DNA of 64,000 bases. Origin: Tubiluchus corallicola (lineage: Eukaryota > Priapulida > Priapulimorpha > Priapulimorphida > Tubiluchidae). Shown here piece after piece: positions 21,901 to 62,117 of this stretch. Below the pieces are notes generated by a model, which worked only from the letters and a program-made list of their open reading frames with translations, had not been told where the DNA came from and made no database searches. Location: the NCBI GenBank assembly GCA_030141605.1, contig JAQGDQ010000048.1, positions 124,001 through 188,000 on the forward strand. Reading direction: 5' to 3'. The position numbers and the translations under genes were made by a program. Positions within the stretch are counted from its first letter, which is position 1, and each line of letters begins with the position of its first letter.

Positions 21901-24900
21901 TTGTCCATTCGTTTTTACTAATTTCAGTGAAAACTATGATATAGGTCAATCTATGAAATACTATGATTAAATACAGTCTTAACCTGTACACAATACTACA
22001 ATGATCTTATCAATGATCTTAGCAAAAAGTAAAGCATACCTGCCAAACATTCAGTCGACAGTAACATATTGAAGACAGAGAAGCAAAGATTACAAAACAG
22101 TGTGTGGCTAAGATCCGAGAAGTTAACCAATTTCGTCAAACGAAGTAAATATCACCTAGTTCGATGTAAAAAACGTATACAACTTTTCTGCACAGGCGTC
22201 AGTAGCATACATACCGCCAAATATACTCTGTCCCTTTCTATAAGATCAGCTAGTTTATTCAACAGCTGCCCTCTGCCGGAGGCATCCATGCGCCGCCATG
22301 GTGACCCCAACTTGAAAGCATTCGAAGCAGCAGTAACTGCCTTGTCAACATCGGCCTAAGTAAGATGGCAGAGTACAATTAATTATTATGCTAACAAATA
22401 ATCGTTTTACAGGCTATTAAAGGATTTCATAATTTCCACATACAATTTCATTGAAACCAATTTTAAGCTGTCTGCAGTTGAAAGTTATCTGTGCGACGTG
22501 CAAATAAGCAAGACGATCAGACAATCCTTACGCAATATTTTTCAGCAAGCAATGCAGATAGACGCGTTCGGGTGAGTAACCGTACTCAGTGTGAATATGA
22601 CTACATAAAACCACCTAACAAGCACATTATCAGAGCTAGGAAACAGCAAATAAAATTTCAGTGAACACACAATGGATGACTTTGCAGGGTAATCCAAAAG
22701 AAATAATGCATCTAAGCATAACAAAAATGAGCATACCAATATTACACCATAAAAAAGTCCAATAAGTGTGGCTACAACAAGTTATATGGTAGAAAATATT
22801 TTAATTTTAAGTCATTATGATGTCAGACTGCAGAAATCTAGGTTCATTTTAGAACGTTTTCTTCAACACATTTCAAACTATCAGCAATTCAGCATAGTTC
22901 TTTTGAAACACCCTGTGTCGGTTTCACAAAGTCAAGTGTGACATTATACAAACATTTTGCCGCACCATATACTACGTCCTACCTGCCTATCCAGGTGTCA
23001 AATTTAGCTTTGGTGGCATCTTGCAAAATTTTCGGAGAAAGGGCACAATGTTCTTTAGATAAAATATTTACAGGGTCAGTGTAAGACTAAGTCTGAAGGA
23101 TCAGTCTTCAGTGTTAAAGCCAAAATCAAGTATGCGATACTGTTACTACTACCCGCATATCAAATTTCAAGTTTGACTGGTTTCTCTTTGCTTTAGGGGT
23201 AAAATGCAAAACGTTTCGGTAGGCTAACTGATACGCAATGACTTAACTGTAAAACTGTGCAGATCTTGAAGCCAAGACCTAATATTTTTTAAGACAGAAA
23301 CTTAGTGGGGAATACCCTGCAGGCCTTCTCCAAAGTTACCAAAATCAGTCTGTATTTTTGTAATAGTGTTATAGTTGGTCATTTTCCACTTTCAGTGTTT
23401 TATTTTCAGGTATATCAGTAATTGTTAAAATTCTTATTGGCGTTGTTTAAGAATAAATTATAGTGAAACAAATCTCAAAACTATATTGCTAAGTAGCAAG
23501 AATGCGAATTAAATCTTTTAAGTAATGCATCAAGGTCTACAAAATACGTAGCCACTAAAGGGACATAATAGAAAAATTTTGTCATTCCTCCGAGTTATTA
23601 AGTCGTTCCCTCGAGTTATTAACTCGTTCCCCCGAGTTACTAAGTCGTACCCCCGAGTAACTAAGTCAACCCCCGAGTTACTAAGCAACTCTGGAGAACG
23701 ACTTAGCAACTCGGGGGAACGATTTAGCAACTCGGTGGATCGACTTAGCAACTGGGGGGAACGACTTAGCAACTCGGGGGATCGACTTAGCAACTCGGGG
23801 CAACGACTTAACAACTTGGGGGAATGACTTAAATTATTTTATTGTGTCCATTTAGGGCTCCGTAATAAAAACACTGCAAATACTTATTTGTTTTAACCAA
23901 ATAAGTTGTTATAGTCTATAAGATACTACCTTATAGTGCTCTTAAACGCCCTCAAATGCAGTAAAATGATCGGTGGATGATGCTAGCCTCCGGTTATACT
24001 TTCTTAAAAAGGCTTTCTTGAAGAACAAAGACAAAGTCAAGAGTATCACGGTGATCTTCCATTAGCAACTTACCGAATGATAGTTTTGTTGACTTGCTTT
24101 TCAATGATCCATTCGAGTGTGCGTTTGACTGTACACGCATGCATGCACGCACGCACGTCTTCACTTTTACGTCAGCAAAAGCTACTTTTATGTCACTTTT
24201 GGGCTAGGAACAAAAATCCATGTCTTTTATTTTCATAAATATGCACACTTAGTAGAATGCCTTACCTGATCGCCTTCTGCCACGTCACAGATTTTCTCCC
24301 CTGTAGTTGGATTGATAGTGGGAAAAGTTTTACCACTGGCGGAGTCCTGCCACTCGTTATTGATGAATATCTAGAAAGTAAAAAGCGAAAAGCAAAAAGT
24401 AAAAAGTAAAAAGTAACATTTACGTATATATAAAAAGACATTGAACGTGCAAATGCTGCTGGGTACCAAAATGTTTAAATTCTTCAAATAAAACTTTTTT
24501 ATTGTTGAAATTGACTATTACATGTGCTAATAAAGTAAAGTTCATTTGTGGGCCCGCTGGGCCGCAGTGGGCACAAAAACTTAGAAGCATTGGGTAAGTC
24601 GCCAGTAAGCCAGTGAATATTTTAATTTTTTTAATCTTTGCAGTTGAACTCAAGAGATACTGAGTGTGCATGCAAAAAGCCTCGAATTTATTGCCCATAT
24701 TTCTGTAGTAATATAGATAAAATTTGAAGGCTGCCATTTAATTCGCATTTTGTACGTATCATCCACAATAGGGTACTAATATAAAAATAATCAAAATCAC
24801 AAACTGTTTCGTTGGGCGGCCAAAAAAAATCGGGGTTCATTGACGTACGATGTAATGGCCGTCGATTAGCTATCAAGCATAACAAAAACAATGTGCCGAC

Positions 24901-43307: not shown

Positions 43308-46300
43308 AACGATGATGATGACGAAGATGACGGATGCCGACGATGATGACGATGACGGTGATGATGATAATGATGATGATGTAGGTGGTGATGATGATGA
43401 TGATTGTGATGATGATGATTTAAGTTTATTCAAGTTTATTCACCGCACATAATTATTACATCGTCATACAAACACACACTTTTAGTAAGGTTATTTCAGA
43501 GGCTGAAAATTTTAGTCTATTAGTCTGTAAAATATAATTTTAAATCTTGTTCACAAAATGCCTCTGTGTCGCAAATTAGTCTGAAAGCAGACCCTTGTTA
43601 GACTGATTTGACAGTAAAATGAAAAGATTACGAAGAAAAGACATGTAATGAATCAGTTAAATATAAAGCAAGTTAACCAGAGTTTAAAAAGGTTAGTGAA
43701 GAGGGGTTAGTGAGAAGGATCAATATGATAGAGCAAAAACTGAGGATGAAATTGTCATGTAATTAATTACTTGTTATAGTCTGATTTTAGTTCAATGAAA
43801 TCTTGTACTACATATAACTCTCATATTTAGATCCGTAATAACAACAATAGAATCACTATGATGAAATTACGTACTGCTGATATGATAACGATACATCTCC
43901 CTATGATGTTTATCAAGGTTAATTAAAACATTAATCAGCATTGTAATTCTTAAATTTTTCTGACGTAATAAAATTGCAATTTCTTAAGTGATACAATAGT
44001 TTTAATGATAGAATTCAAAGAGTTCCATAATGATGCCCAGTGCATGTAATTAAATGCTTAGCTAGATTTGTTCTGCAGTAATGTACGGCAACATAAATTG
44101 ATTTTGTCTTGTGTTATGGTGTGCAATATTTGTTCTAACTGGTTAAATGAAAGCAGTTAAGAAACAAATCGTTATTAGTTTTATACGTGAAGGTTGCTAC
44201 ATTCAAATTTGCTAGGTCGTCTAATAGTAAGATATTGTTTATCTTGAAATACTGGTACTGACATGGGTGCATTTGCTTAAGTTATAAATTGATCTAATAA
44301 ATTTATGTTGTAATGTTTCAATAGAATTTGATTTGTTTTATATGTTCGACCCTACAAAATAGTACAATCGTTTATAGGTGGTAAAATTAGATTATTGTAT
44401 AATGTGATCAAATGTTTTACTCTCGGACGTTTTTATATGCGTGATAATCCCTAATTTTTAGTTCATTAATGATCACACCCAAAAACTCTATCTCAGTTAC
44501 ATGTTTATTTGGCACTTAGTCGATTTTTGTGGGTGTATTATTAGAAAAGTGATTCAATTTTTTACCACGGGCTCTGATTAATATATATTTGGTTTTTAAT
44601 GCATTAAGCAATAATTTATTGCTTTTAAACCACCTTGATATTGTCTGCAATTCTCTATTAATTGTAATGATATCTTGTTCTAGCATTCTAATGCATGAAA
44701 AAAACTTCTGTCATCTGCAAATTGAAACATTTTAGATTGATTTAGACAGCTTTTTAAATCATTAGTATAAATTAAAAACAAAACTGGGCCCAAAACGGAA
44801 CTCTTGGAATGTAAAAATGTTTACATTCATTGGAAGTTTTATCTGAAACACCTTTCCTAAAGAGACAATTAATATATTTTTAGTTAAAGCTAGAATTATA
44901 TTCTAAGTTTTTGCTATAATATCTATACTCTTATATTAATATTCTTGGTATACATATTTATTTATATATATATATAAGATTCGAGGCTACAGCCCGGACG
45001 AGGGCAGCATTTGCGACGATCTATATATCAAACGAAAGGTCTCGATCTAGTGTCGTGCCATTGATGGTTTATTTTTCAAATCGGGCCCACCGGAAGGAAG
45101 GGGAGGCGAAAAACCTCCAAAAATGGCCCTTTTTCGGCCGTTTTTTGCAAAAGTTATACGGCTGAGATGTAGAGAACGGGAATGGGCTGAGGGTGGTACT
45201 GGGTATGGATAGATAGCCCGTTCAGCGGTGGGTGTAGTAGGCATATTTAGAATTCGCGAGAGGGCCAGGGCGCCCCGCAACGGGAGTTTTCCCGGACCCA
45301 ACTCGCGATTTTTTCGAAATTTTGACCAAACGGCCTGCGGAAAAAACGTTCTAGCGGCGCCCAGTGGGACTCTCGGAAGAAGATATATAGCTCTTTACAA
45401 AGAGGAAGAACAAGGCTACACGATGATACACGATGATGTAGGTTATATTTTAGGGCAGGTCCACCGAGAGGAGTATCAACGAGTTAATTAGATGTTCTAT
45501 TTTTCGCAATTTTCACTTAGAAAACTGCTGACGCGAAACCATTGTTCTGACGTCATCCATTGTACTCTACTCTGCTTATAACTTTAATTCAGCAAAAAGC
45601 TACAGGCTTTGCGTTAGTTAAACAAACAGTAGGCACGATGTTAAGGGCTTTGTGTTATAAATGAGGACTAGGTAGGATGTTCGCGTATTATTGATTACAC
45701 GTGTATTTATACGCAAAATCTTTTGCGGGGCCTTTGCTATTTATTATATTATAGCACATAGTTTCAACTTTGTGAAAAATGTTTGGAATGGTTTTGTTGT
45801 AATGCTGTGCTGTTGGTGCTTGTGCTATAGGTGTCGTCATCATTGCCACCATCATCATCACCATCATCAACATCATGATCACCACGTGAGGTGGTGGATT
45901 TGATGTGGTGTGGTAGTGGTGTGCTTTGTGTGTTGTGCTATGGATGGTTTGGTGGTGTGATAGGGTGTGTGGGGTGTGGTGTGGGTAGTGTGGTATGGAG
46001 TGGGTGGCATGGTGTGTGGGTGGGTGGGTGCTGTGGTGCAGTGTGGTGTTATGGTGTGGTGCAGTGCGGTGTGATGTGGTGGAGTATTATGGTGTAGGTG
46101 ATGTGGTGTGGTGTGTGGGTGGTGCGGTGTGGTGTGGTGCAGTGTGGTGTGATGTGGTGGAGTCGTATGGTGTGGGTGGTGTGGTGTGTGGGTGGTGCGG
46201 TGTGCTGCAGTGGTATGGTGTGGTGCAGTGTGGTGTGATGTGGTGGAGTGGTATGGTGTGGGTGGTGTGGTGTGTAGGTGGGTGGGTGGTGTGGTGCAAT

Positions 46301-49300
46301 GTGGTGTTATGGTGTGGTGCTGTGCAGTGTGAATTGGTGGAGTATTATGGTGTGGGTGGTGTGGTGTGGTGTGTGGGTGGTGCAGTGGTATGGTGTGGTG
46401 CAGTGTGGTGTGATGTGGTGGAGTGGTATGGTGTGGGTGGTGTGGTGTGTAGGTGGTGTGGTGTGGTGCGGTGCAGTGTGGTGTTATGGTGTGGTGCTGT
46501 GTAGTGTGATGTGGTGGAGTATTATGGTGTTTGTGGTGTGGTGTGTGAGTGGTGTGGTGTGTGGGTGGTGCAATGATATGGTGTGGTGCAGTGTGGTGTG
46601 ATGTGGTGGAGTGGTATGGTGTGGGTGGTGTGGTGTGCAGGTGGTATGGTGTGGTGCCGTGCAGTGTGGTGGTATTGTGTGGTGCAGTGTGTGCGATGAG
46701 GTGGAGTGGTATGGTGTGGTGCAGTGTGGTGTGATGAGGTGGAGTGGTGTGATGTGGGTTGTGTGTTGATTTGTGCACAAAATTCTTTTTGTGGGGTTTG
46801 GCTAGTTATTTATTAAAGCTAATTGCGAAGTGTTCTGTATATTTTAAAGAACGTAGTTTTCTGCTGGATGCTAGCTTAATTACATGTTGAATAATCTAAA
46901 GCAGGTGAGTCACTGTTGTCATCCGGTCATTAACTGTATAATTGCCTAAATGCATATGTAAAATAGTAAACAGGGAATAATTCCCTGGGAAAAACCTGTT
47001 AGGTGCGTAAAATGCTGACAACAGATTTTTCTCGCAGAGGTTTTTCCTTGGATTAAGTACTTGTAGAGTACGAAACTGTGCACAAATAAATAGAGTAATT
47101 AGCACTAACTTCACGTTTGTGCCTCAACGTGACGTTTAACATTATTATAATTGTATTTCAATACGTCGTCTAACATTGTAAATAGCATGTAAATAATTAT
47201 TTGCATCATGATGTTTTAATTCATAGTTCCTTGCTTTTATTTCCACAACTAGAACTACATTGAGGATCTGCACACACTAATTTCTTTCTAATAAGACACC
47301 TTTCGCGAACGTCATTTAGAAATAAAAACTTTCAGTCTGATACATTAGAATTCTCACAGACCAAGAGTAACAAAGTTAAATTTAAATTATTAACACAACC
47401 ATCAAAAATTTTAGATTCACGACATGATGCCGAAAGTGGGCACATGCCCAGTTTTAGGTTGGTGGCAGTATCTTGCACTAAAAATGATGATGATGATGAT
47501 GATGACGGTGATTATCATGACCATGATGATGATGATGATAATGATAATAATAATGATAATGATAATGTCAATGAAAATGATAATGATGTTGAACGAAAAA
47601 TGTGTGCACTGGGTTACTTAGGCTACTATGAGAAATTATTAATTAATACTTTTTTGATGTATCATGTTCCTCACTATATAATGAAACACACACAGTTACA
47701 TCGATGGTGACACAATAACTCTGAAATTTGGCTAGTTAACCGCGGTCATACAACCGAATAATTTTTAACAAGCTAAACTCAACTCTATAAGCTAAATAAC
47801 CCGCCTGGCACCTACTATTATGCTCCCAGAATTGTACGTTTATTTGAAAGTCGATAAAAATAATTTAAATATCTTTTTATGGGAGTATATTGTGAGGTTA
47901 TATCAGTATTTTTAATTGTATATTAAAAAACAATGAGTGTTGTTCGAGGGTTGGATGTTCCTTGATGTGGTGTTATTGCACGTACTTTGTCAAATGTTCA
48001 GTAAGTTCCAAGTATCTGGTTCGAAAAAATATATATTTTCGACCTAGCGAACTTGTCAGCAACATTGTGAACCTTAAAATATCCCAGTTAAAACTTTTTA
48101 ACTTCTATGTAATTACATTACCATTCTCATTCCTACTGACCTCTCGCTATCATCATAAAATCAATTCATTAGCCTACCGCTCTGAAGTTCCCGCTATCCA
48201 TTCTACGTAGGCTTCTTCTATATCTGTTCCATTAAAGTACTGATGTTCAGCGAGCTGGTCCGAAAAATAAAAACCATTTAGGCATTCGCAAATGTAGGAA
48301 CCTCTTTTGAATCCCATCCCATAAACTCGTACGCACTGTAAAAAGAACCCAAACCTTATAAGTGAGCGCTTTACATTTTTCAGTTTTTGAAGTGAACTTT
48401 TTCAGTGATAAAAACTAAAAACACTGCAAGTTCGTTCAAGACAAATTCAGAGAAAACAAAAATCTTTAGTTTAGAGTAGCTCTGAGTTGCTATTCTGCTA
48501 AAAGAAAAGTGTACATTGTCACCTTTGATAACTTTCTGATAAATATATACTAACATAGAAACTTAATTAATGGGTATGGTGAGCACAGTTAGCAATGACA
48601 TCACAACCGAAGACGATTTTCAAACGGCAAAAATATTCGGAGAGCATGTTGCAATTGTTCACAAAAGCGAAAATTGAAATACAGTGCTACTGTACAGCAC
48701 TGACTATGATTTGCGCTAACTATGATTGGCAAATTTTATGTTAAATTTAAGTTATTGTAACTTCCAATTTCACTACAAGTGTACGCAACATCAGAACTTG
48801 AGAAGTACAGTGCCTGTTGTTTGTGCAAGGCGTTTCCTAGATGCCGGCGCTGTGCCCATCTAACTAGCGAATGGCGAAATGCACGTAGTAACGAAAAACT
48901 AATGGCGCGAACGTCAACGAAACTTTAGTGGTAACAACTTTTTCGCGTAAATTGTTTTTAAAGAAACAGTATTTCCCTTATAATATTTTATACATTCTAT
49001 CATTTTGAGCTATGGTTTAACATTGGGCCCGGTTTGCCTTTCCGTAATCATTAGTTGATTAACAGCGATATAAGTAGTGAGTTAATTCCTATGCCAAGCC
49101 ATACTGCAATTATTACAGTGGCTGAGTGCCAGATTCTAGAGTACTGTAAGTCGAAATATCGGGCGTTTCAAAAGTTTATATTTTATTAAAATTTAATAGC
49201 AATTTCTACAAGAACCAAATGGCAATTTGATGGCCGAGCCTCCAATTTATGAGTATTTTAGTCATAACAAACTTGGCTTCATAAGTCTATTGCAGCGAAT

Positions 49301-51423
49301 TCAATTTTTCCATAAGTGTCATGTAGGGATTTTACACCATCGCTCTACAGTCAGCAGGACTTCAGAAGAAAACGACGCAAAACTTCAAATGTAGACTCAA
49401 AAAAAATCTCATTTACTGAGTAAGAGGTTACAATACGAAGAACGTCATTAGTTGAAGTTACAAAGAAAACTGGAAATCAAATTAGCGAGGGATTTATGAA
49501 ACACCCTTTATTATATCTTTTGACAAGACGGATTCGTTAAACTCAACGCTAAAGCGCCGTTTTGTACGAACCTTTGTAGACTCTCGGCAACGATGTGTCC
49601 CTCTAAACACATCCACTGTTGTTTCCGTGTCATTTTCATCTAAGTCGCACTGATCGATGTCAATATTGCTAAGGTGAACGTCAAGACCAACAATACCTCT
49701 AAAAAGTATTATATACGATATGTATATGCGTTTCAGTGTTAATGCGCCCGAAAAAAACCTTTATAGCAAATCAAAAGCGTGAACGTACAATAATGGATCT
49801 CCTTTATAGCATACACATATATCACACTCTCAGTGAATTTAAACAACTTTCTACAATATCATAATCTCCTTGCGGAAGCACTACAAATTTAGATCTAAGC
49901 TAAAGCTCTTCCGTATAGCAACGTCGCAAAAACTTGAAAATGTGTAATACCTTCAATTTTAGTTCTGTACTTGTTTCCACAGAGCTGTGGTTGGGTTCAT
50001 AGTCAATAGCTAGCATTACAGGCCACAAAAAAACCATTATGATAACTGCACAAAAACTTCTCGTACATGCTGTTAAATAGCCGGTTTTCTTTATTTCAGA
50101 AAAGTTATTTTTGTTGCGTTAATGTTTCTTATAAATGCATCCAAGCGGACATATGTATATTATCACTCAATAGCCGTTGCCGGCTAACACGAGAAAGTAG
50201 CTTTACTATGGGCTTACATGAATTCCAGTTCATCAACTGTATTAAATTTGCGTCTGAATATAGGCGCAGAGTATGTAACCATCCATATATCTCCTCCCCC
50301 GCAGTCAAAGTACGGTTTTGTCCAATGCCCATCGTCGAGGTCAGCAAAAGGCTCGATGAAAGTTCGAGGTTTCCCGTGAGTATTTCCCGTCGAATTGTAT
50401 CTGAAGTTACAGCATAAAATTTCTTAATAACCAATAATGAGAAAGATAATCAAAGTTCATCTTGTGGAAACTAAAAACCTCGTACTACCTACGTACTAGC
50501 TTCAAGTAAAGACTCAACAAAGCTTCATAGACCATGATAGAATGAAACGAAGTAGATACACGAATTTCATTTTTATGAAGCAGTAGCTTACTTCAATTTT
50601 TATAGATACTCGTATGTGAAGACACTTTTAGCGTACATATGTTGTAAAGGGATGATGCGTAAGGGGATGATGCACACTTAGTTAAACAGAAGAAAAAAGA
50701 AAAAAGAAAATAAAAACAACACCGTTTATAAAACGGAATAAAAAAATGATTTTAACTCGTCGAAAATTTAATGGCAACCAGTACGAGTTTTATTGCAAAA
50801 CTATGTACAGATTGTCAAAAAGCAAAATGTCTAAATTTCCAAATGACTGGAAAATCGTGGATTGCTATGTGCTACACTTGACTCGAAAAAGCCTGCGCAA
50901 GTCGCTAACAGGAAGCTCGTCATGCAGCAAACAAACATTCTTAAAAAATATTCATTATGATTCATTTACCTGGGTCTCAAGTAGACATTCCACGTATGCA
51001 GATTATCATAACTCTGATTATATGGGTGCCACCACCACTCTGTTTGACTATTGTCAAGAAATTTGTACTCCACTGAAATATCATGCACATTTATCCTGCT
51101 CTGCTTCTTGAAAGCATAGGAACAGAACTGACGATAATCCTTATAAATGTATTCCCCAAACGCCACCATGCAACCAAATGTCCGCGGATCGGACTCCACG
51201 TTCGTTCTGGATATGGCAAAGAAAAAGTCGTCCGTGACATATGGAGGAGTTCCATTGTAATATAACCACTGCGACGTGAGAAAGTTGGCAGACCTGACGG
51301 CTATCATGGCGATTTCAGACCAACTAGAGTAGTTGAATTCGATGGAGAGTTGCATGGAGGTTCCTGGGGTACATTCGCTCTTGCTCACCTCTTCTACATA
51401 ATGCAGCGCCGTTCCAGCTTTAT
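34564..51423 (-). CDS. GPR158/GPR179-like orphan class C GPCR (5' exon missing)
   Basis: Eleven or twelve minus-strand exons join in phase: 50970-51423, 50218-50400, 49572-49698, 48178-48335, 42615-42795, 41924-41992, 41030-41139, 38298-38515, 37830-37968, 37528-37633, 35539-35712 and a likely last exon 34564-34701 (TGA). They give about 684 residues. Order: an extracellular Cache-like domain (SDPRTFGCMVAFGE, then PYFDCGGGDIWMVTYSAP and VGLDVHLSNIDIDQCD), a Cys-rich linker (CVPCPPGCDTCVDNTPC), then seven membrane helices. TM3 follows ALCLTRIW and loop 2 has YEDCIISWWD, giving the usual disulfide pair. TM5-7 read FLFLLWGVYLCFIVRKAPS, then SIYNTVIVGTFLIII and VTVTQCLIFLPK. Human GPR158 is known as a glycine-responsive receptor (mGlyR) that binds RGS7-Gbeta5; ligand and partners here are unknown. 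The signal peptide and the start of the Cache domain are not found. Confidence 0.87.
34702..35538 (-). other. GPR158-like gene intron
   Basis: Holds an ATC/GTC-rich trinucleotide run (35281-35399). Poly-Asp and poly-Met frames there are artefacts. Nothing else is seen. Confidence 0.6.
35281..35399. repeat. CAT/CGT/CTT trinucleotide microsatellite
   Basis: A compound run of CAT, CGT, CTT and GTT triplets in an intron. Confidence 0.9.
36076..37391. mobile_element. non-autonomous hAT-type DNA transposon (1316 bp)
   Basis: The terminal inverted repeats are near identical: CAGGGCACTTTATTTATGAC at the left and its reverse complement, ending GTGCCCTG, at the right. Both ends are flanked by the exact 8-base duplication CCTATGGG (36068-36075 and 37392-37399). 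CAGGG ends and 8-base duplications are hAT hallmarks. Subterminal TTTATGACTATTTATGAC occurs near both ends (about 36155 and 37337). I find no transposase, so it likely moves in trans. It fills most of a GPR158-like intron and contains a nested MITE and a GA run (37224-37246). Confidence 0.9.
36792..36897. mobile_element. 106-bp hAT-like MITE nested in the larger hAT element
   Basis: Ends TAGGGGTAAGCAT and ATGCTCACCCCTA are inverted repeats. The exact 8-base duplication ACGCCGCT flanks them (36784-36791, 36898-36905). The core is a tandem of TTCGGTTCGATTCGAATTCG, itself partly palindromic. It inserted after the host element existed. Confidence 0.9.
38009..38072. repeat. ATC trinucleotide microsatellite
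   Basis: Two ATC-rich runs in a receptor intron, imperfect on the right side. Confidence 0.85.
38516..41029 (-). other. GPR158-like gene intron, 2.5 kb
   Basis: Holds a three-unit tandem of a ~16-base GGACCACC-containing unit (about 38866-38915) and short TTCC/TTTC runs near 40670-40695. No exon is recognised; the open frame at 39235-39462 (+) resembles nothing I know. Confidence 0.6.
41140..41923 (-). other. GPR158-like gene intron with GGTCGACC-type motifs
   Basis: Between about 41330 and 41840 the motifs GGTC-GACC and GGTCAA recur on both strands, hinting at a decayed inverted repeat. I could not find convincing ends. Confidence 0.35.
43222..43417. repeat. ATG trinucleotide microsatellite
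   Basis: Pure ATG for about 85 bases, then imperfect GATGAC/GATGAT. It directly abuts the 3' end of a minus-strand LINE relic. The poly-Met, poly-Ile and poly-Asp frames are artefacts. Confidence 0.95.
43418..44875 (-). pseudogene. degenerate LINE reverse transcriptase fragment
   Basis: On the minus strand IYTNDLKSCLNQSKMFQFADD includes the reverse-transcriptase active-site box FADD (codons at 44710-44721). It is followed by ITINRELQTISRWFKSNKLL and, further on, TEIEFLGVIINELKI, the usual order in non-LTR retrotransposons. Several frameshifts and stops show it is dead. The 3' end (AATAAACTTGAATAAACTT) meets the ATG microsatellite. The 5' part of the element is missing. The clade (CR1/Jockey/RTE-like) is not resolved. 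Confidence 0.75.
45712..45740 (+). other. internal Helitron-terminator-like hairpin, copy 1
   Basis: CGCAAAA-tc-TTTTGCG, then GGGCCTTTG and CTAT. It resembles the true 3' end of the same element (hairpin, GGGTTTGG, CTAG) but ends CTAT. It stands just before the minisatellite. Confidence 0.65.
45892..46755 (+). repeat. GT-rich minisatellite inside Helitron-like copy 1
   Basis: Built from GGTGTGGTGT-type units with a higher-order period of roughly 65-75 bases (a block with GATGTGGTGGAGT recurs). The strands are strongly skewed: one has almost no C. The long Thr/His/Pro and Val/Trp/Cys frames are artefacts of the repeat. Confidence 0.9.
47484..47577. repeat. ATG/ATA microsatellite
   Basis: GATGAT and AATGAT units in a receptor intron. 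Confidence 0.9.
48336..49571 (-). other. GPR158-like gene intron, nothing recognised
   Basis: A 1.2-kb AT-rich intron between the Cache and Cys-rich exons. No repeat or RNA is seen. Confidence 0.6.
49572..51423 (-). other. extracellular Cache-type ligand-binding domain (exons 1-3 visible)
   Basis: Exon 50970-51423 begins with the last two bases of a codon, so at least one upstream exon exists. Text such as ANFLTSQWLYYNG, EYIYKDYRQFCSYAF and WTKPYFDCGGG fits the Cache domain of GPR158-type receptors as I remember it. Exon 50218-50400 is easily missed: the longest open frame across it is in the wrong frame. Confidence 0.75.
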
Positions 51424-51861
51424 CTACAAAATTACAAACACAAAACTATTTAAGGCTACTCTTATGGAAATAACAAACGCGTACTAAACTTTCAGAAAAA
51501 AAGATGAAAGTAGGACAAGGAGGAGAGATAAGGTCAAACGACAGTTGTGAAATAATTTAGTTCCTCATGCAAAAGTAGCACATAGTGGATATTGTCCAAC
51601 AACATTTCTCATTAAGTTTTCATTCATGGAAGTGGGAAGTTTAATTATAAGCCAAAAACTTAAAAACCATGTTTACCCAAAAGTCAGACAAACAGTTCTA
51701 TTTATAAGCAAAAACAATGAGTCAATGACAACTACATTATAAATATTTCATCAAGAAAAAAGATTCCTCATCTATTAAAATTATTATTTAAGTAACAGTT
51801 CTTCGCTAGTTAGTTTAAATTAGTTTATTTGACATCTATCTATTTATTTCGGCAGTATGGG

Positions 51862-51866
51862 ATATA

Positions 51867-51897
<31 letters not shown>

Positions 51898-51930
51898 AGA
51901 GATAGATATAGAGATAGATATGTATATATA
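51862..51930. repeat. TA/GATA microsatellite
   Basis: TATATA, then GATATA and GATAGA units. It abuts the 3' end of the minus-strand LINE relic to its right. Next to it is AAGATTCGAG, also found near the 5' end of both Helitron-like copies, probably by chance or shared ancestry. Confidence 0.85.
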
Positions 51931-51939
51931 TGTAAAAGA

Positions 51940-52640
51940 TTCGAGTCCATAAACTAATACAATAAAATAAATAAAATTACTAAATTTATGATACTAAAAA
52001 TAGTCAATAGGGTGCGGAAGAGGCGCACAGAGCTATACTGCTTAAGTGCGTCTTACAAAGTGATACACAGTATTACAAAATGTTCTAAACAAAGTAATAT
52101 TAAACAACGCATAATACAAATACTGATTTAAATCCAAGGTATTTAAACGTTTCCGAAATAATTTGGCATTCATTGCTGTCCAAAAGATGTCCATTGCATG
52201 TTATGGTACGGAATTCCATACTACACGATTTGAGAAGAAATGACCAAAAGTAGTTTTGGAAACACATCTCATATATAATTTTAGAGGATGATTCCACCTC
52301 GTGTTATCGGCTAGTGCACGCCTAAAAACATGTCAGAGTCTAAATTCACTTCTTTGTGTATAATATTATAACACATGACTAAATCGTTTTTAGACGTCTT
52401 TCTTCAAGAGATTCTAAGCTAGTAGACTTAAGTGTCTCGGGTTAAGATACGTAGTTTAAATTGCATCTATAGAAAACTTTACGTTTGAAATATCTTTGGA
52501 CATTTCCAGCATATCTGTATCGCCATACTGGGATGTAGACCAAGCAGGGGAACAACATTGCCTAACTGGCCTGACTTATACCTTATAGGCCATAAGAAGT
52601 GCATTGCTATCCTTTTTTCGAATGTTCTAAATAATATATT
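51940..52640 (-). pseudogene. degenerate LINE 3' fragment
   Basis: On the minus strand, in shifting frames, one reads AWSTSQYGDTDMLE, then STSLESLEERRLKT, and then ADNTRWNHPLKLYMRC, HFFSNRVVWNSVP and FRKRLNTLDLNQYL. This order (LEKVQRR-, LEYRRLR-, HFFSNRVVDVWNSLP-, F-KRLD-like) is the tail of the ORF2 protein in many CR1/Jockey-type LINEs. Frameshifts and stops make it dead. Confidence 0.7.
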
Positions 52641-52856
52641 CACACTTCTACTAGCTTTTTTAGAAATTTAATGTACATATCTTTAAAGCAGCGCTGAAGG
52701 CATATTTGATGTTAAAGCTCAAATGATAGCTTTGTCCGCACCTATTTCAGTACACTGTATGCGATAGATGAAAAAATATCATTAACGAAGTGTAGCGTGC
52801 GAAAGTTTAGCGTGACGTCACTGGTATCTCGTGCTGATAGACAAACAGATAGAGGG

Positions 52857-53112
52857 ATGGATGGATGGATGGATGGATGGATGGATGGATGGATGGATGG
52901 ATGGATGGATGGATGGATGGATGGATGGATGGATGGATGGATGGATGGATGGAAGGACGGACGGACGGACGGACGGACGGACGGACGGACGGACGGATGG
53001 ATGGATGGGTGGATGCATGGATGGACTGACGGACGGACGGACGGACGGATGGTTGGATGGTTGGATGAATGGAAGGATGGATGGACGGACCGACAGATAG
53101 ACGAACGGACGG
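52857..53112. repeat. compound GGAT/GGAC tetranucleotide microsatellite
   Basis: About two dozen GGAT units change to about ten GGAC units, then mixed blocks. The WMDG and HPSI frames on the two strands are artefacts. Confidence 0.95.
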
Positions 53113-53426
53113 ACGGGTAGGCATTCAGACAGACAGATAGATGCTTTGCTTCTCGTTATAAGATACAATTTTTTTAAAAAAAGAAATTGGTTGTCAATAT
53201 GCAAAATTACTGAAAAAAATTATGTTACCATAAAAAGTACCTAATGTTAACAACTCCACAACGGGGTCAACGGGACATCACTTACCAAGACAAAATACAA
53301 AGACAAGGGAAAATGATAATTAATAGCCATTAATATAACGTCGTGGGAAAATACAGTCATTGTCAGCAGGCCTATCAAGATCATGTTTATTTTGTGGTAT
53401 TACGTAGGTTATCATTAGTCTCTTTT

Positions 53427-54065
53427 TTAACTTTTTTTAGAATTTTTCAATGTGGGTTCTTGCTTTTCACTAGATAGTTGGTTATTCCAAAGAGTTATTG
53501 TGGTTTTAACTATGCTATGGTTGTCATATTTGTTTTTAGTAGTAATTTGTTTAACATTGTTAGTCCTGTTGTTTTTCTCTATTGTTTGAAACAGGGGTAG
53601 TTTACTGCTTAAAAACGGTATACTAATATTATGCGTGTATTTGTAGAAGAAATCCATGGTGATTTTGTGAGCGACTAGATTATTGGTATTCTTAAATTTT
53701 CCTGATTGATTGGCTTGATTCATATTTTTGAGGGCGTTTTTGCTGACACCAGTAATGAGTCTCTGGGCACAATTTTGAGAAGTATTTATTTTGTTCAAAA
53801 CTTGCATTTTAGCATTATTGTATAAAATGCGAAGGTAGACCGAAGGTTTTGTTTCAGAGTAGGTTGTCCTTTAACTTGTCGAAAGTAACTAATGCTGATT
53901 GCCATCTTACAGATACTTTCCAGTATAAGATTCCATTTTAATTTGTTATCAACAATTGTTCCCAAGAAATTTGTGTTCGTAGTTTCAGTAATACATGAAG
54001 TTCTCCCGCTAATTTCAAATGTTTTGCTACGAGCATGTGTATATAAAATACTTTTTTGCACGCGT
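53427..54065 (-). pseudogene. degenerate LINE 3' fragment (reverse transcriptase C-terminal region)
   Basis: Minus-strand text NTNFLGTIVDNKLKWN and SICKMAISISYFRQ resembles the FLG-x-DxxLxW motif just after the LINE reverse transcriptase. QNCAQRLITGVSK and TLWNNQLSSEKQ follow in another frame. The frame breaks near 53800. It has no functional coding capacity. Confidence 0.65.
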
Positions 54066-54502
54066 TATACTTACAAGTATGATAAAATACATATATAAGC
54101 AGTTCGCTAAGGCAGAAGTTCACTAACGTTGGACTACAACCAGCAGGCCTATCCACTATCCAGTGCTGGTATCGCTACAATCGCTGTACATGTATTACGT
54201 TTATGTACATGTAAATTAACATACATCTACACGCGCACACATATGTCGCCTACTAAAAGTCAACGAAATGTACCTTATTTGCATCTTTCATCGATACTTT
54301 ATCCATGCATGGGCTCCAACAAGACCTAGCATGAGTTTCTGAGATAGTAAGGTGAATGTTTATGAACTTAATTGATAACCACTCACCTTATTGCTTAACA
54401 ATCATCTCTTTGCTTGTTGGCTGTTTGAAAAAGAACACTAATAAACTGCTTTTTGAACAAAAAACTTAATTAATATATACTTAAAAATGTTCCTCCTTCT
54501 TT

Positions 54503-54543
54503 CGTATGTTCGTTCGTTCGTTTATTCGTTCGTTCGTTCGTTC
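54503..54543. repeat. GTTC tetranucleotide run
   Basis: About nine imperfect GTTC units. Confidence 0.85.
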
Positions 54544-55390
54544 GCTTGTTTGTTTCTCATTAGAAATACCTTACATCTTCGACAATTCTTCATCATAGAG
54601 AGAGAAACGGCGGGAAACGGCGTCTAAACTGTCGATGTCAGTATTTCGACATTCCCATGCGGGGGTCATCATGCAGTCTATGTATTCAAACCTTAAGAAG
54701 TTTCTTCAGGTATCAGTCTTCCTGCCGAACATGCAATATACTACATGCAAATGTTCATTCTGCGTGCATTGCCTTAGTGCGTAATATATTAAAATCCACA
54801 ATGAAATCAACATAGATGGATATTTTTTTGTAAACATTAATTTTGAAATTCCGGACATCTGCGTATTCTCGTCCATGCCTCGACCATATTCAGCTATAAT
54901 TTATTGCCCATCCGTCTGCAGTATGCGATCAGTGTAAGTGTTTTCACTTCTTCACTTTATTTTCGAGTTTTAAGAGTAGAACAACAGACAGGCAGCCAGA
55001 TACAAATTACTGAACTTTATATACGATGTACAAATGAATGACAGCAAGGTCACTGGAGACGTAGCAGGCATCAAGAAGATTGAATTATAGGAAATCGAAC
55101 ACGTGGCAGGTGGGATTTCACTCTTTCTACACCAATTAAGCATTTAAGCTTGCTGTCTCGTTTAATCAGTTCCTACTTAATTAGCCGAATCATTATTGTT
55201 TACTAGAGGTAAAGGGATTAACTAAATATTCCAAAAGTAATTATTGTAATAACGCAGAAATAAATTAGTATAATGCATGATTAATTTAATGAAATTACAC
55301 CTGGGCCCGACTGGTGTTTACTATTATGCGTGACTGTTTGACTTAATTAAGTTCATTCACTTGTTACATGTACTGCTTCTGCTCCCTTCT

Positions 55391-55465
55391 CTGTCTCTCT
55401 CTCTCTCTCTCTCCTCTCTCTCACCCTCTCACCCTCCCTCCCACCCTCTCTCTCTCTCTCTCTCT

Positions 55466-55516
<51 letters not shown>
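55391..55516. repeat. CT microsatellite
   Basis: A long CT run with CCCTC interruptions, ending shortly before the 5'-truncated LINE at 55560. Confidence 0.95.
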
Positions 55517-55518
<2 letters not shown>

Positions 55519-55559
55519 CTTACACGTTTAAAGATAAATACATTACCTGGTAAGACAGG

Positions 55560-56880
55560 AGCATTGCTAGTAGGGGCATGGGATGAAAATAACAAGCCAG
55601 ACAATTTAAAAATTAGTAACGATGAAATATTGTTTGTTGAAGACAGCAAAATATTAGGCCTTACTGTTGATCGGAAATTAACATTTGCTAAACACGCGGG
55701 TAATGTTCATAAAAAGTTATGGTATAGATGGTTGAAAGTAAAAAACAATTGCAGTAAATATGCAGGTTTGCGACTTGCTACCATTGTAAATATTTAAAAA
55801 CTACTATTTTGCCGATTATGCTGTACGGTGCTATTGCATGGTTAAGTAAAAAACTTTCTGTATTTGAAGATATAATCTATGATATAATGAAAGTTGCTGC
55901 AGGGTCTGCTTTTAAACCAGATCGAACTAAATTGGAAATACGTTGTGGTCTTCCACCGTTAGACATTGAATTAAATGTAATTGTTGTTAAATCTTGTCTC
56001 AAGACGTTATGTCAGAGCGCTGATGATTTAATTAAACAAAAGATTCTGCGGCATGGTAGTGCACGTCTTACAGGAAGGCATATTTATAAAAATATTATGT
56101 ATACACATGCGCAGACTGTGAGACACAATTTGTCTGGAATGAAAACTTCCGTACTACAGATCTTGAAGAAGTTCCTGAAAATATGTTAGAGTATACTAAA
56201 CGTCAAATTATGGATTATGTTTCTTGTACCTGGTCAAATAAATATAGGCATGTTATGCAATTTCGAGGAGAAAATGTTGAAATACAGAATATAAAATGTA
56301 AAACCTTGAATTTGCCGCTTGGAAATAATGAAAGGAAAATAGAATCCATTGCCGTGTCTTTTTTAACTGGCCAGGGGAATTTTAACAGCTTTTTGTATAG
56401 ACTTAATCTGTGTGATACTAGTTTATGTCCATGTGGAGAAGAAGAGCAAACTCCTCAGCACATTTTATTCAGATGCAATAAAGTAGATAATACAAAAAGA
56501 ATGCGTTTCATAGAAATAGCTGATGCCAATTATACACGTAATATTATGCTTCAATCTGATAAAAATTTAATAATGGCTTTTACTAACCTGATCAGAGATA
56601 ATTTTATACTAAGTAATTGTTAATTTAGGCCCGCTCAAGTATACAAAAATAAATTATGTAGGTGTGTAAAGTTAATTTGTGTGTATAATACTTTTGAATC
56701 ATTTGAAATTAAATCTAATTTAAGTATAATATGTTATTCGTTGTACATACTGTGAAAGTAGTGAAACTGGAAATATTTAAAAGATTTGTTATACGAAAAT
56801 GTAAATTGTTGATCTGAGCCTGCAAAAAGAGGCACCTTTTTGTATATATGTTCATTTCTTTAATAAAGATTTATTATTAT
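55560..56880 (+). pseudogene. 5'-truncated LINE, broken by two frameshifts
   Basis: Three overlapping frames follow one another. The first has SKILGLTVDRKLTFAKH (to about 55797). The second has ILPIMLYGAIAWLSKKL and LEIRCGLPPLDIELN (to about 56189). The third ends with a Cys/His knuckle CDTSLCPCGEEE then HILFRC (to 56623). This is the usual end of a non-LTR retrotransposon polyprotein after the reverse transcriptase core. A ~240-base 3' tail ends AATAAAG and then a TTA repeat (56868-56890). There are few stops otherwise, so it may be fairly young. Confidence 0.8.
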
Positions 56881-57699
56881 TATTACTATTATATTATCTC
56901 CCCCCCCCCCTCTTTTCTCTCGCTCTCCCTCTCGGTCACAGTCACGTGGTTTTGTGTGGTTGTATGGTAACAATAGCTCTGATAAACCGTGTAAAAATGT
57001 TCACTTAGAAAGAAAGGAGATTAAAACAATTGTGATGTAATTGTGCGTCTTGTTATGGACAATTCGTCTGTGTTATGTTGGATAAGCTGTAAGTGGAACG
57101 CTTTTTAATTAATTGGGAAGAAAACAAGAATTTTGACTATTTGATCCAATGCAGCAGTACCATTCACTAACAGAAATCAGTAAAATCTAAGTGGTACTGG
57201 TATCGGTACCGCAATTTCTAGCCAAACAGGTGAGAGCAAGTTTGTTCTTACGCACAATGAGCTTAAGTCATCTCTCATCATCGTCATCATACGCCCATCA
57301 CGTCCATTGTAGACACTGGGCAGGCAGAATTCTAAAACAAACGAAATCTGATACGCCAGTGGCTTGTCAGCATCACTTCCGAGTAATGGGCTTAATTATT
57401 TTACTCAAAATCGGTTACAAGCACGAGTAGCTTTTACTTACCAACTGACTGTAATTCACGACTTTTACATAGAAAAGCAGTGTGTCAAGGCGAAGTTGCA
57501 GTTTATTGAATTGATACCGGCAACTGGATGCGTAGTTTATTGACGAACATCACAGTACAATATAAAATACAATGTACATAAAAAAATCACAAATCTCACA
57601 AAGCATCCCAACCCTTGCATATAATTTTCACATTGAAACAGTCGAGGTAAACAGTTTGTGATATTTACACGTTTACAAGAATAATATAATTACAATAAT

Positions 57700-58385
57700 G
57701 CGCTTTTGCTATTAATTGAATACGATTGTCTGTGACTAAGATTTTATTTTCCTTCTTTCAAAACAATCTCTAATATAATTGAAACTAAATTATTTACAAG
57801 TTCACATTTATTCATTTCATCAGAAATATGATTTTTTCCGGTACTGTGAGATTCGCAAAGTTTGGAAAAATTGCCTTGACACGAGAGAACAAGCTATGTC
57901 TTAAATCATTATAATAGTTACATTCAAGAATTAAATTCTTTTCGCCATCAATTTTTTGATCTGTACAAAAACAACATAATTGTTAAGGGGGATTATAGGT
58001 TTAGCGTGTCGGCCTTTTTCAATAAGGAAGCTGTGTGAGCTAATACGCAACTTTGTAAAGTTTGCTCTTTTAGCGAGATTTTTTATTAGCAACAAGTATC
58101 TTTCTTCTACGAACTGTTTTTAAACTTGGAATAAGTTCGTAACTTGTTCTTTTCGTTAACATTTTTACCAGTTTTGTGGTGACATTTTCCTTCCAGTAAT
58201 TTTCATAGTTAGTTTGAAGTTTGTTTTGATTTCGGTAAACTTATAAATTGTTTGAGCCTCTGTACTTTGAGCCCCCAAAATGTGCGAACCCTGTATGATT
58301 TAAAATGGCAAGATATCACTTTTATATTTTTATTTTAAAGATCTGAGCTTTCATCTGCCCAACTTGTTTGCAATATTTCTAACAG
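57700..58385 (-). pseudogene. degenerate LINE C-terminal fragment
   Basis: Minus-strand text at about 57985-58077 reads LAKRANFTKLRISSHSFLIE and then KGRHAKPIIP. The pattern R-x-S-x-H-x-L-x-IEKGRH-x-KP precedes the Cys/His knuckle in many invertebrate LINEs. Downstream frames are broken. Confidence 0.6.
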
Positions 58386-58389
58386 GATT

Positions 58390-58640
58390 ATGAACCACTA
58401 GATGTATGTTGACGATGCCTGTTTATTAGTGCATCAATGATTACGGCCGTTCAGCAGCTACGAGAGATATATAAATTGTGTGCTGCAAAGTATGTAACGA
58501 GGACCAACTTACGTCAAATAATTCAAATTTTATGAGAAATTTTACGTTTGGTAACATCAGATTAGATAATGTTCTTCGCATCTGTGATAATGAAAAATAC
58601 CTAGACATACCATTTCAAATGATTACCGACATGACCTAGA
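58390..58640 (+). pseudogene. LINE reverse transcriptase fragment with YVDD
   Basis: Plus-strand MYVDDACLLVHQ includes the YxDD catalytic box (58405-58416). It is followed, after a stop and frameshift, by ITAVQQLREIYKLCAAKY and NFTFGNIRLDNVLRICDNEK. It abuts the oppositely oriented fragment on its left. Confidence 0.6.
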
Positions 58641-59114
58641 CATCGTTAATCAAAGATCGTTATACAATTGACGTCTAACATAATGTTAATTATTTTCGTT
58701 GACTGCCCAATCAGGGTGCAAGTTATTTCACACACCCCTGCAGCAGGTACGTGCGGTACATTTAGCTACAGCTCCGTCTAACACCGTTATGAAAAATGCT
58801 CAACTTTTCATTAGTTAGCGGGAGAAATATTGGCCTTGTTCTAGATTTTATTATTGTCAATTCAAATTGCAAGTGAATTAGTGGAAATATATAGTCTAGT
58901 TTCGTTTATAGGAAGAAATGCACTTACGTCTATGAGTTCCTGATTAAACCATTTTGCAATCAAGACAATATGCAGTTTAGTTTAGTTTATGGCTTTGCAA
59001 GTTAGATAAAACAACTATTCGATTAACTTTAAATAAAGACAAAGCAAAATGTTTTCTTTTCTAGCCAGTTTTTATAAACCTCAATGAGATCTTCACAGTC
59101 AAAATTAATTCAAA

Positions 59115-59250
59115 TGTGAATGGAATGGAATGGAACAGTCAAGTTTATTCCATTTCCGCAGCCTGACAAACGGAAAAATACAAAACCTTAATAAATCTCG
59201 CAGACGAGCACATGACCAGTTAATATAGAAAAATACATTGTAAGCTTGAT
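59115..59250 (-). repeat. possible LINE 3'-end relic
   Basis: GAATG-type repeats, then TCAAGTTTATTCCATTTCCG. The AAGTTTATTC text recalls the end of the LINE relic at 43418. Short and weak. Confidence 0.3.
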
Positions 59251-59337
59251 GTTCGTATGTTTAAAGTCAAAAGAGACTTAGTATTTTTGTTGCTCATTTA
59301 TTGTAAAGCAAGGCTAACTGGCTCAGTTTCTTTATTA

Positions 59338-59366
59338 TATTTATATATATATATATATATATATAC
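59338..59366. repeat. TA microsatellite
   Basis: A pure TA run of about 28 bases. Confidence 0.9.
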
Positions 59367-60178
59367 AATAGTTATGTATGTTATATATAATATTATATAT
59401 GTCTCTGTATTTTGTAGTGCTTTGAAACTTCGTCTCTATATTCTGTTTAAATTGAAAAGTCATTTTGGCTAATTGAAGTGTTAATTTCATGTTAAAATAG
59501 CTGCTGCTTTACAAATTTGTGTTTATAAAAAAGAGCAATCAGGTTATCTGCTGATTAGACATTAGTTGTGACTGTCATGTTGTTTAGTTTAGTTTAGTTT
59601 AGCTTAGACAGTTGTTGTCCTGCGTGAGCTGTTGTCCCGAATGCTGCTGAGTGTGCTTACGTTGCAGCGGGGGGGGGGGGGGGTAGGGGGAGGGCGATAG
59701 ACCAATATGTTTGACGTCAATTGTCATGCAAACCAAATATAGAAAAATTCAGCTGCTCTTCTGTTGATGTTAAAATATATCTATTTAGTGCCTGTTGTAA
59801 TGCCTTCTATTGCATGGCTACCTGGTGGCATTCTAATAATTAAGAAATTTTAAAGCTCAAAGTTGCGAGCAATATTATTTTTCAAGTATGCGTATGATTA
59901 TAGTGCTCATGCAATGAGCATTGAAATTCGCAGTATATGTTTCGATGTATTATATAGGAAATGTGTATCCAGAATAATGAAGGAACTTGATTCCAGTGCG
60001 AATTTAATGTGCTAGGAAACTTCAGCAGCCAATGCATAATTGACCTCGCACATAAAACAGCAATGGTTACAAAATTTTTATGTTTATGTAAGTTTGTGCA
60101 ATTTGTTTGTATTAGTTTTTGTTTTTATAATGCTGTATGTTGCAAATATGTAAATTATAATACGAACTTAAGTTCTAG

Positions 60179-60196
60179 CCCCCCCCCCCCCGCCCG

Positions 60197-60227
<31 letters not shown>

Positions 60228-60228
60228 C
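60179..60228. repeat. poly(C) plus CT microsatellite
   Basis: A C run directly followed by a CT run. Poly(G) at 59669-59683 is nearby, a possible local pairing partner. Confidence 0.9.
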
Positions 60229-61078
60229 CGAGGAGAAACCATAGAGGGGAAACAACGCATTTATTGTTTAATAAAAAGACTTATACTAATAATAATCTAC
60301 TATTATATTAATATTCTTGGTATCTTAATATATATATATATATATAAGATTCGAGGCTACAGCTTCGACGAGGGCACCATTTGCGGCGATCTATATATCA
60401 AACGAAAGGTCTCGATCTAGTGTCGTCTCATTGGGGGATTATTTTTCGAATCGGGCCCACCGGGAGGAACGGGGGGCAAAAAACCTCCAAAAATGGCCAT
60501 TTTTCGGCCGTTTTTTGCAAAAGTTATACGGCTGAGATGTAGAGAACGGGAATGGGCCGAGGGTGGTGCTGGGTATGGATAGATAGCCCGTTCGGCGGTG
60601 GGTGTAGTAGGTATATTTAGAATTCCCGAGAGGGCCACGGCGCCCCGCAACGGGCGTTTTCCCGGACCCAACTCGCGATTTTTTCGAAATTTTGACCAAA
60701 CAGCCTGCGGAAAAACGTTCTAGCGTCGCCCAGTGGGACTCTCGGAAGGAGATATATAGCTCTTTACAAAGAGGAAGGACTGGGCTACACGATGATGTGG
60801 ACTATATGTTAGGGCAAGTCCACCGAGAGAAGTACCGACGAGTTAATTAGAGGTTCCATTTTCGGCAATTTTCGCTTAGAAAACTGTTGACGCAAAGGCA
60901 TTGTTGTGACGTCATCCATTGTACTCTGCTGTAATCTTATAACTTTAATTCAGCAAAAAGCTGCCTGCTACGGGTTTGCGTTAGTTAAACAAACAGTAGG
61001 CATGATGTTACGGGCTTTGTGTAATAAATGAGGACTAGGTAGGATGTTCGCGTGTTATTGATTATACGTGGTTTTTTA

Positions 61079-61107
61079 CGCAAAATCTTTTGCGGGGCCT
61101 TTGCTAT
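61079..61107 (+). other. internal Helitron-terminator-like hairpin, copy 2
   Basis: The same CGCAAAA-tc-TTTTGCG hairpin, GGGCCTTTG and CTAT as in copy 1, again just before the minisatellite. Confidence 0.65.
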
Positions 61108-61257
61108 TTATTATATTATAGCACATAGTTTCAACTTTGTGAAAAATGTTTGGAATGGTTTTGTTGTAATGCTGTGCTGTTGGTGCTTGTGCTATAGGTG
61201 TCGTCATCGTTGCCACCATCATCATCATCAACATCATGATCACCACGTGAGGTGGTG

Positions 61258-62070
61258 GATTTGATGTGGTGTGGTGGTGGTGTGCTTTGTGTGTTGTGCT
61301 ATGGATGGTGTGGTGGGGTGATAGGGTGTGTGGGGTGTGGTGTGGGTAGTGTGGTATGGAGTGGGTGGCGTGGTGTGTGGGTGGGTGTTGTGGTGCAGTG
61401 TGGGGTGATGTGGTGGAGTCGTATGGTGTGGGTGGTGTGGTGTGTGGGTGGTGCGGTGTGCTGCGGTGGTATGGTGTGATGCGGTGTGGTGTGATGTGGT
61501 GGAGTGGTATGGTGTGGGTGGTGTGGTGTGTAGGTGGGTGGGTGGTGTGGTGCAGTGTGGTGTTATGGTGTGGTGCTGTGCGGTGTGATGTGGTGGAGTC
61601 GTATGGTGTGGGTGGTGTGGTGTGGTGTGGTGTGTGGGTGGTGCGGTGTGCTGCAGTGGTATGGTGTGGTGCAGTGTGGTGTGATGTGTGGAGTATTATG
61701 GTGTGGGTGGTGTGGTGTGGTGGAGTGGGTAGTGCGGTGTGCTGCAGTGGTATGGTGTGGTGCGGTGTGGTGTGATGTGGTGGAGTGGTATGGTGTGAGT
61801 GGTGTGGTGTGTAGGTGGGTGGGTGGTGTGGTGCAGTGTGGTGTTATGGTGTGGTGCTGTGCGGTGTGATGTGGTGGAATATTATGGTGTGGGTGGTGTG
61901 GTGTGGTGCATGGGTGGTGCAGTGGTATGGTGTGGGTGGTGTGGTGTGTAGGTGGTATGATGTGGTGCGGTGCGGTGTGGTGGTATTGTGTGGTGCAGTG
62001 TGGTGCGATGAGGTGGAGTGGTATGGTGTGGTGCAGTGTGGTGTGATGGGGTGGAGTGGTGTGGTGTGGG
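61258..62070 (+). repeat. GT-rich minisatellite inside Helitron-like copy 2
   Basis: Same unit type as in copy 1 with a different order and number of blocks, about 50 bases shorter. The open frames in it on both strands are artefacts. Confidence 0.9.
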
Positions 62071-62117
62071 TTGTGTGTTGATTTGTGCACAAAATTCTTT
62101 TTGTGGGGTTTGGCTAG

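Follow-up and report, generated by a model that had tools for sequence, protein, structure and literature searches.

Helitrons lying in tandem have been attributed in the cited literature, as far as its available sections go, to terminator bypass or to circular intermediates, and the part of the Helraiser and Helibat work at hand (PMC4778049) demonstrates that Helitrons can read through a weakened 3' end. In the accessible portions of three papers, precedents also exist singly for internal tandem repeats, read-through ends, tandem copies and self-insertion (PMC4067079, PMC4778049, PMC5148889). The window analysed here, 64,000 nucleotides of the priapulid Tubiluchus corallicola (assembly GCA_030141605.1, contig JAQGDQ010000048.1, positions 124,001 to 188,000 of the forward strand), carries two repeats that are almost certainly copies of a non-autonomous Helitron family of the canonical type. 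The family exists in a short form and a minisatellite-bearing long form, and both forms were found as solo insertions and head to tail, mixed within the same arrays.

Termini and insertion site

Both window repeats are solo insertions of the long form on the plus strand, in agreement with the common orientation noted in an earlier sequence-only reading of this DNA. Copy 1 (44922..46805, 1884 bp) lies between A 44921 and T 46806, and copy 2 (60296..62117, 1822 bp) sits within an (AAT)n tract with A 60295 and T 62118 at the edges, as that reading had also described. The copies share 87% identity across 1912 columns (BLAST), and outside both termini their likeness fades in a MAFFT alignment judged by eye. 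Each starts with TCTA after A, which was read directly and recovered by script, in the variant TCTATACTCTTATATTAATATTCTTGG for copy 1 (44922..44948, plus) and TCTACTATTATATTAATATTCTTGG for copy 2 (60296..60320, plus). The working 3' terminus of copy 1 (46776..46805, plus) consists of a 7-bp hairpin (46776-46793), the eight bases GGGTTTGG and CTAG (46802-46805) before T, and that of copy 2 (62088..62117, plus) has the same parts (hairpin 62088-62105, GGGTTTGG, CTAG 62114-62117). The hairpin, CACAAAA-TTCT-TTTTGTG, folds as the earlier reading had stated, at -5.4 kcal/mol (z -2.97). A hairpin with spacer, CTRR and T is not rare by itself, occurring at 10 window sites on both strands when the stem is at least 6. 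Terminal inverted repeats, said to be lacking, were indeed not seen on inspection of copies 1 and 2, no dedicated search having been made, and subterminal inverted repeats were likewise not seen, by inspection only.

The family was followed through the 343.5-Mb assembly (2344 contigs). A query of 846 bases of copy 1 gave at least 54 matches, and the copies examined come from 35 places among these 54, a sample that is not random because merely the 40 best candidates were scored; 80 body matches were present in the retrieved loci, 67 of them long enough for a tree. The 30-base 3' end, with its hairpin conserved, gave 285 genome matches (146 + 139) at up to 3 mismatches, and the reversed control gave 0. 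Forty-two distinct long-type 3' contexts were distinguished, with 16 facing other DNA, 25 continuing straight into another copy's start and one decayed. All 16 long-form ends facing other DNA in the retrieved loci stop at CTAG|T, so that no extension shared beyond the 3' end was found. At the other end, 72 copies with intact body starts were analysed (the motif being unreadable in 3), and A|TC was present in 28 of the 30 starts without a preceding 3' end, two of which lie inverted inside other copies; A alone was present in 29 of the 30, and TC, though not A, was partly built into the search pattern. The leading 5' bases differ among copies, being TCTATACTC.., TCTAC.. or TCTC.., followed by the common TTATATTAATATTC. 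Shared extension or variation of the ends, which the earlier reading had named as refuting, was not encountered on the 3' side, and a few bases vary on the 5' side.

Insertion between A and T without target duplication is indicated by one insertion, an array of two long units on contig C1813 (3207 bp), in which joining the flanks restores the empty site. With the flanks joined, 40 scored candidates elsewhere match, and every one of the 41 reported pieces spans the joint with 89-96% identity at the alignment level, some of these matches looking like assembly duplicates. Eight other joined insertion sites, included in the same query, gave no scored match. Across the sampled copies, the Helitron-type ends, the A|T insertion, the non-autonomous structure and the minisatellite cargo proposed from the window were all upheld.

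A Helentron or HINE placement was ruled out because insertion occurs at A|T instead of T-T or T-rich sites. An Rfam search returned nothing at gathering scores, and a 20-base pattern had no match in viral_contigs or genome_contigs outside the source genome. A partial match to the element body with 66% identity was noted at C215:1445766-1446087 and is perhaps an older relative.

Short and long forms

The short form is about 0.8 kb long, stands alone between A and T and is closed by its own hairpin and CTAG. The long form is a short form with CTAT in place of this CTAG, followed by extra DNA with a minisatellite and then by a second hairpin and CTAG. In the window, all on the plus strand, the body common to the short form occupies 44985..45705 in copy 1 and 60355..61070 (C64:184355-185070) in copy 2. 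It is followed in copy 1 by the internal short-form 3' terminus at 45712..45740 (hairpin CGCAAAATCTTTTGCG at 45712-45727, GGGCCTTTG, and CTAT at 45737-45740, where the short form has CTAG) and in copy 2 by that at 61079..61107, also with a hairpin, GGGCCTTTG and CTAT. The extra segment covers 45741..46765 in copy 1, with a minisatellite of TGTGG-like units at 45904-46765, and 61108..62077 in copy 2, with the minisatellite at 61265-62077. Among 42 long units (one further unit was excluded) this segment measures 574-1571 bp, with a median of 906.

Nine of the 10 short-form ends facing other DNA in the retrieved loci read CTAG|T. The tenth (C139:59362) reads CTAT and is placed among the long forms on the tree, and it may therefore be a long copy that ended prematurely. 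Genome-wide, 863 exact occurrences of the 18-base core of the short-type end were counted, not necessarily all in this family. Of 91 printed strings of this type, 17 run into the extra segment with CTAT and 17 are self-junction-like; 52 of the remaining 57 read CTAG|T. Short-type 3' ends on contigs C75, C126, C163 and C175 have identical flanks mirrored on both strands, as if palindromic, which is perhaps an assembly artefact. On the body tree (46 long and 21 short), the form label changes 7 times against 18 in shuffles, so the long and short forms are mostly separate lineages with some exchange between them.

The internal CTAT, together with CTAG at that place in the short form, points to the long form as an altered short form running to a new end, and an origin by terminator read-through is considered probable. 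The first terminator would have been lost (CTAG to CTAT), read-through would then have captured DNA with the minisatellite, and a downstream hairpin with CTAG would have been taken up as the new end. Taken jointly, the Helitron identity of the family and the read-through origin of its long form are only marginally less probable than that origin by itself. The two 3' ends of copy 1 (45671-45740 and 46736-46805) resemble each other with a local score of 25, a resemblance from which homology is not claimed: shuffled pairs scored 13.4 (sd 2.2) with a maximum of 25 in 2000, and the best of 1707 other window stretches reached 28, above the score of the pair. The TTATTATATTA that follows the internal terminus resembles element starts and is too AT-rich to be judged as a relic of a short-short junction.

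Organization and origin of the arrays

Within the arrays the two forms are interspersed, as in the order long-short-short-long-long-short on C2290 or the one long and five short units on C1254, and in 36 of 41 junctions the next start follows CTAG immediately. The 31 adjacent pairs, 2 of which are on opposite strands, have a mean distance of 0.0917, compared with 0.0917 for all pairs (permutation p 0.50, or 0.44 when form is kept). On average, sampled array neighbours resemble each other no more closely than family members taken at random, and this counts against simple concatemers. Of the 35 sampled places, 14 are no more than 5 kb from a contig end, where 2.1 were expected; the arrays probably either interrupt the assembly or are located close to chromosome ends.

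A target tendency was apparent in host DNA. ATTAAT is present in 24 of 69 distinct 3' host flanks, always offset 6-10 bases from the cut; 0.7 would be expected from the A|T sites of the window and 3.9 from shuffling the flanks. These flanks were selected to begin AGT, with 17 self-junction-like strings left out, and as 15-base flanks they show ATTAAT at offsets 1-10 only; the set may hold unrecognised relatives, which would inflate the count. The element starts TCTCTTATATTAAT, TCTATATATTAAT and TCTATTATATTAAT fit the same tendency (A^T with ATTAAT 6-10 bases further on), and for this reason self-targeting is proposed. From the first T to ATTAAT, starts without a preceding 3' end have spacings of 14 (13 copies), 12 (11) and 9 (6), and starts at array junctions have spacings of 9 (22 copies), 8 (5), 10 (4), 7 (1), 5 (3), 4 (3) and 16 (1). 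Spacings within 6-10 therefore characterize 32 of 39 array-internal starts against 6 of 30 other starts (Fisher p 4e-7).

The one array-internal start with a spacing of 16, at C891:67334, belongs to a copy that hardly differs from solo copies (0.001). CTAG and TCTA stand in front of this start, and the following unit downstream starts TTATATTAATATT; TCTA and TTATATTAATATT together make TCTATTATATTAATATT, a start found at C1915. Similarly, at C215:1449003, TCTACTA stands before one unit and TTATATTAATATT opens the next. These split halves are such as insertion into a resident 5' end would leave, and they directly support it.

We give an even chance to the view that arrays grow mainly by separate insertions with resident 5' ends as targets. 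The 5' end of a resident copy would serve as target, and the new copy would land at the front of the older one; starts keeping the ATTAAT spacing would become array-internal, and those changing it would stay at the front. The broader proposal, that one code serves the transposase for reading both target DNA and its own 5' end and that the arrays represent directional self-targeted stacking, is offered tentatively, at somewhat below an even chance. No paper stating such a shared code in Helitrons was found among the open-licence papers searched, which is weak evidence of absence.

Several observations weigh against self-targeting as the whole account. No left-over halves stand upstream of the truncated starts at C569:43302 and C1254:73963 (at C891:68960 and C1386:90503 the upstream sequence could be followed only a short way). 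By the flank matrix, the TCTAC.. start lies at the 97th percentile of window A|T sites despite its spacing of 12, and it occurs at an array junction solely as an inserted copy; the TCTCTT.. start reaches just the 92nd percentile. In one young short subfamily, the members on C2317 and C1732 start TCTATACTC.., and the member on C1809, behind a long unit, starts TCTCTT.., so a start leader may be lost or gained as arrays form. A TA-rich stretch 30-45 bases into the element holds some of the A|T sites with the highest scores, and only the double start at C1254:74800 and the inverted insertion at C139:59362 were seen near it. Given these misfitting starts, scores and sites, the target tendency is at best part of the explanation. 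The closest neighbour pairs are moreover concatemer-like, differing by 0.004 (C1268, nearly identical), 0.018 (C1525) and 0.032 (C485).

Rolling-circle concatemers, in which a single transposition yields several units at once from a template that is circular or copied repeatedly and CTAG-TC arises by end joining, would account for the C1268 pair and the two further close pairs as well as for the frequent abutment of CTAG on an element start. A joining step would also suit a context-dependent loss of the start leader, and Helitron circles and tandem copies are on record in the available text of PMC5148889. This explanation is nevertheless rather unlikely, as adjacent pairs are on average as unlike as random pairs, short and long units alternate within arrays, and the split halves on C891 and C215 speak against it. 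Uniform concatemers might instead have been scrambled later into mosaics by unequal exchange and gene conversion. The 7 label changes on the body tree indicate that exchange between the forms occurs, and the excess of places near contig ends fits arrays that may be long and hard to assemble; neither the link between start spacing and context nor the split halves is predicted by scrambling, which appears slightly less likely again than unscrambled concatemers. A satellite-like repeat spread by recombination, with no transposon involved, would share the tandem units of 0.8-2 kb, yet it is contradicted by the solo copies with unrelated flanks, the A|T sites and the empty site, and is highly improbable.

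Candidate transposase

By assumption from the family, a Rep/helicase protein would mobilise the copies in trans. The PF14214 (Rep) profile, for which two candidates were scored, had one match in the genome, at C2069:9053-9544 (E 1.2e-49 on re-scan). The open reading frame (ORF) there ends just before what we take to be the place of the HUH motif. Against a mobilising partner, this single match is a decayed remnant and no intact transposase was found; furthermore, no helicase-like ORF was seen downstream of it in the ORF listing, to which no profile test was applied. A 3' end akin to that of the short form (score 69) is present at C2069:15072-15141, 5.5 kb downstream of the Rep ORF, and ends CTAG|T; a matching 5' end was not found in that stretch. 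The Rep/helicase element with shared ends that the sequence-only reading had suggested seeking is thus found in part at most, as a decayed Rep ORF and a related 3' end, with no shared 5' end found in that stretch. The two are regarded as no more than candidate parts of one element.

Other features of the window

A Pfam scan of ten window ORFs gave nothing above the cut-off and one match below it, to a PDC sensor domain (PF22673, E 3.3e-05) in a 159-aa open frame on the minus strand (50966-51445), possibly a host-gene exon. Three overlapping open frames on the plus strand at 55351-56623 give the impression of a retrotransposon tail and had no Pfam match. Two adjoining 21-base tandem arrays are located at 23590-23831; each has units resembling partial reverse complements of the other's.

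Comparison with known systems

The array statistics provide an argument for another route to tandem Helitrons, in which copies insert one after another at resident 5' ends under a testable target rule. Both stages of the probable read-through capture are kept in this family (short with CTAG; long with CTAT and cargo), which makes the order of events checkable in relatives, and the family suggests a way for a transposon to seed satellite-like DNA.

According to the sections available for each system, Helraiser and Helibat (PMC4778049) have in common with the Tubiluchus family the TC...CTAG ends, the hairpin before the 3' end, insertion at A|T, an AT-rich preference strongest on the 3' side, read-through, new 3' ends and Helitrons abutting Helitrons. 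Unlike those elements, the Tubiluchus family has a fixed minisatellite-bearing long form beside the short form, mixed arrays and a positioned ATTAAT in its target flanks. For FoHeli of Fusarium (PMC5148889), insertion into its own 5' ends and the presence of several 5' termini have likewise been proposed, but it inserts between T and A and has other ends, whereas the ends found here are canonical. The Helentron-type DINE-1 and HINE elements (PMC4067079) are likewise non-autonomous and are rolling-circle elements, as the Tubiluchus family would be; some have internal tandem repeats, and Helitron clusters are mentioned in that paper. They differ in their T-T or T-rich sites and their subterminal inverted repeats, in contrast to insertion at A|T. 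The tandem Helitrons of plant centromeres (cited in PMC5148889) also lie as tandem copies; for those a circular intermediate is described, whereas the sampled neighbours in the Tubiluchus arrays are unrelated.

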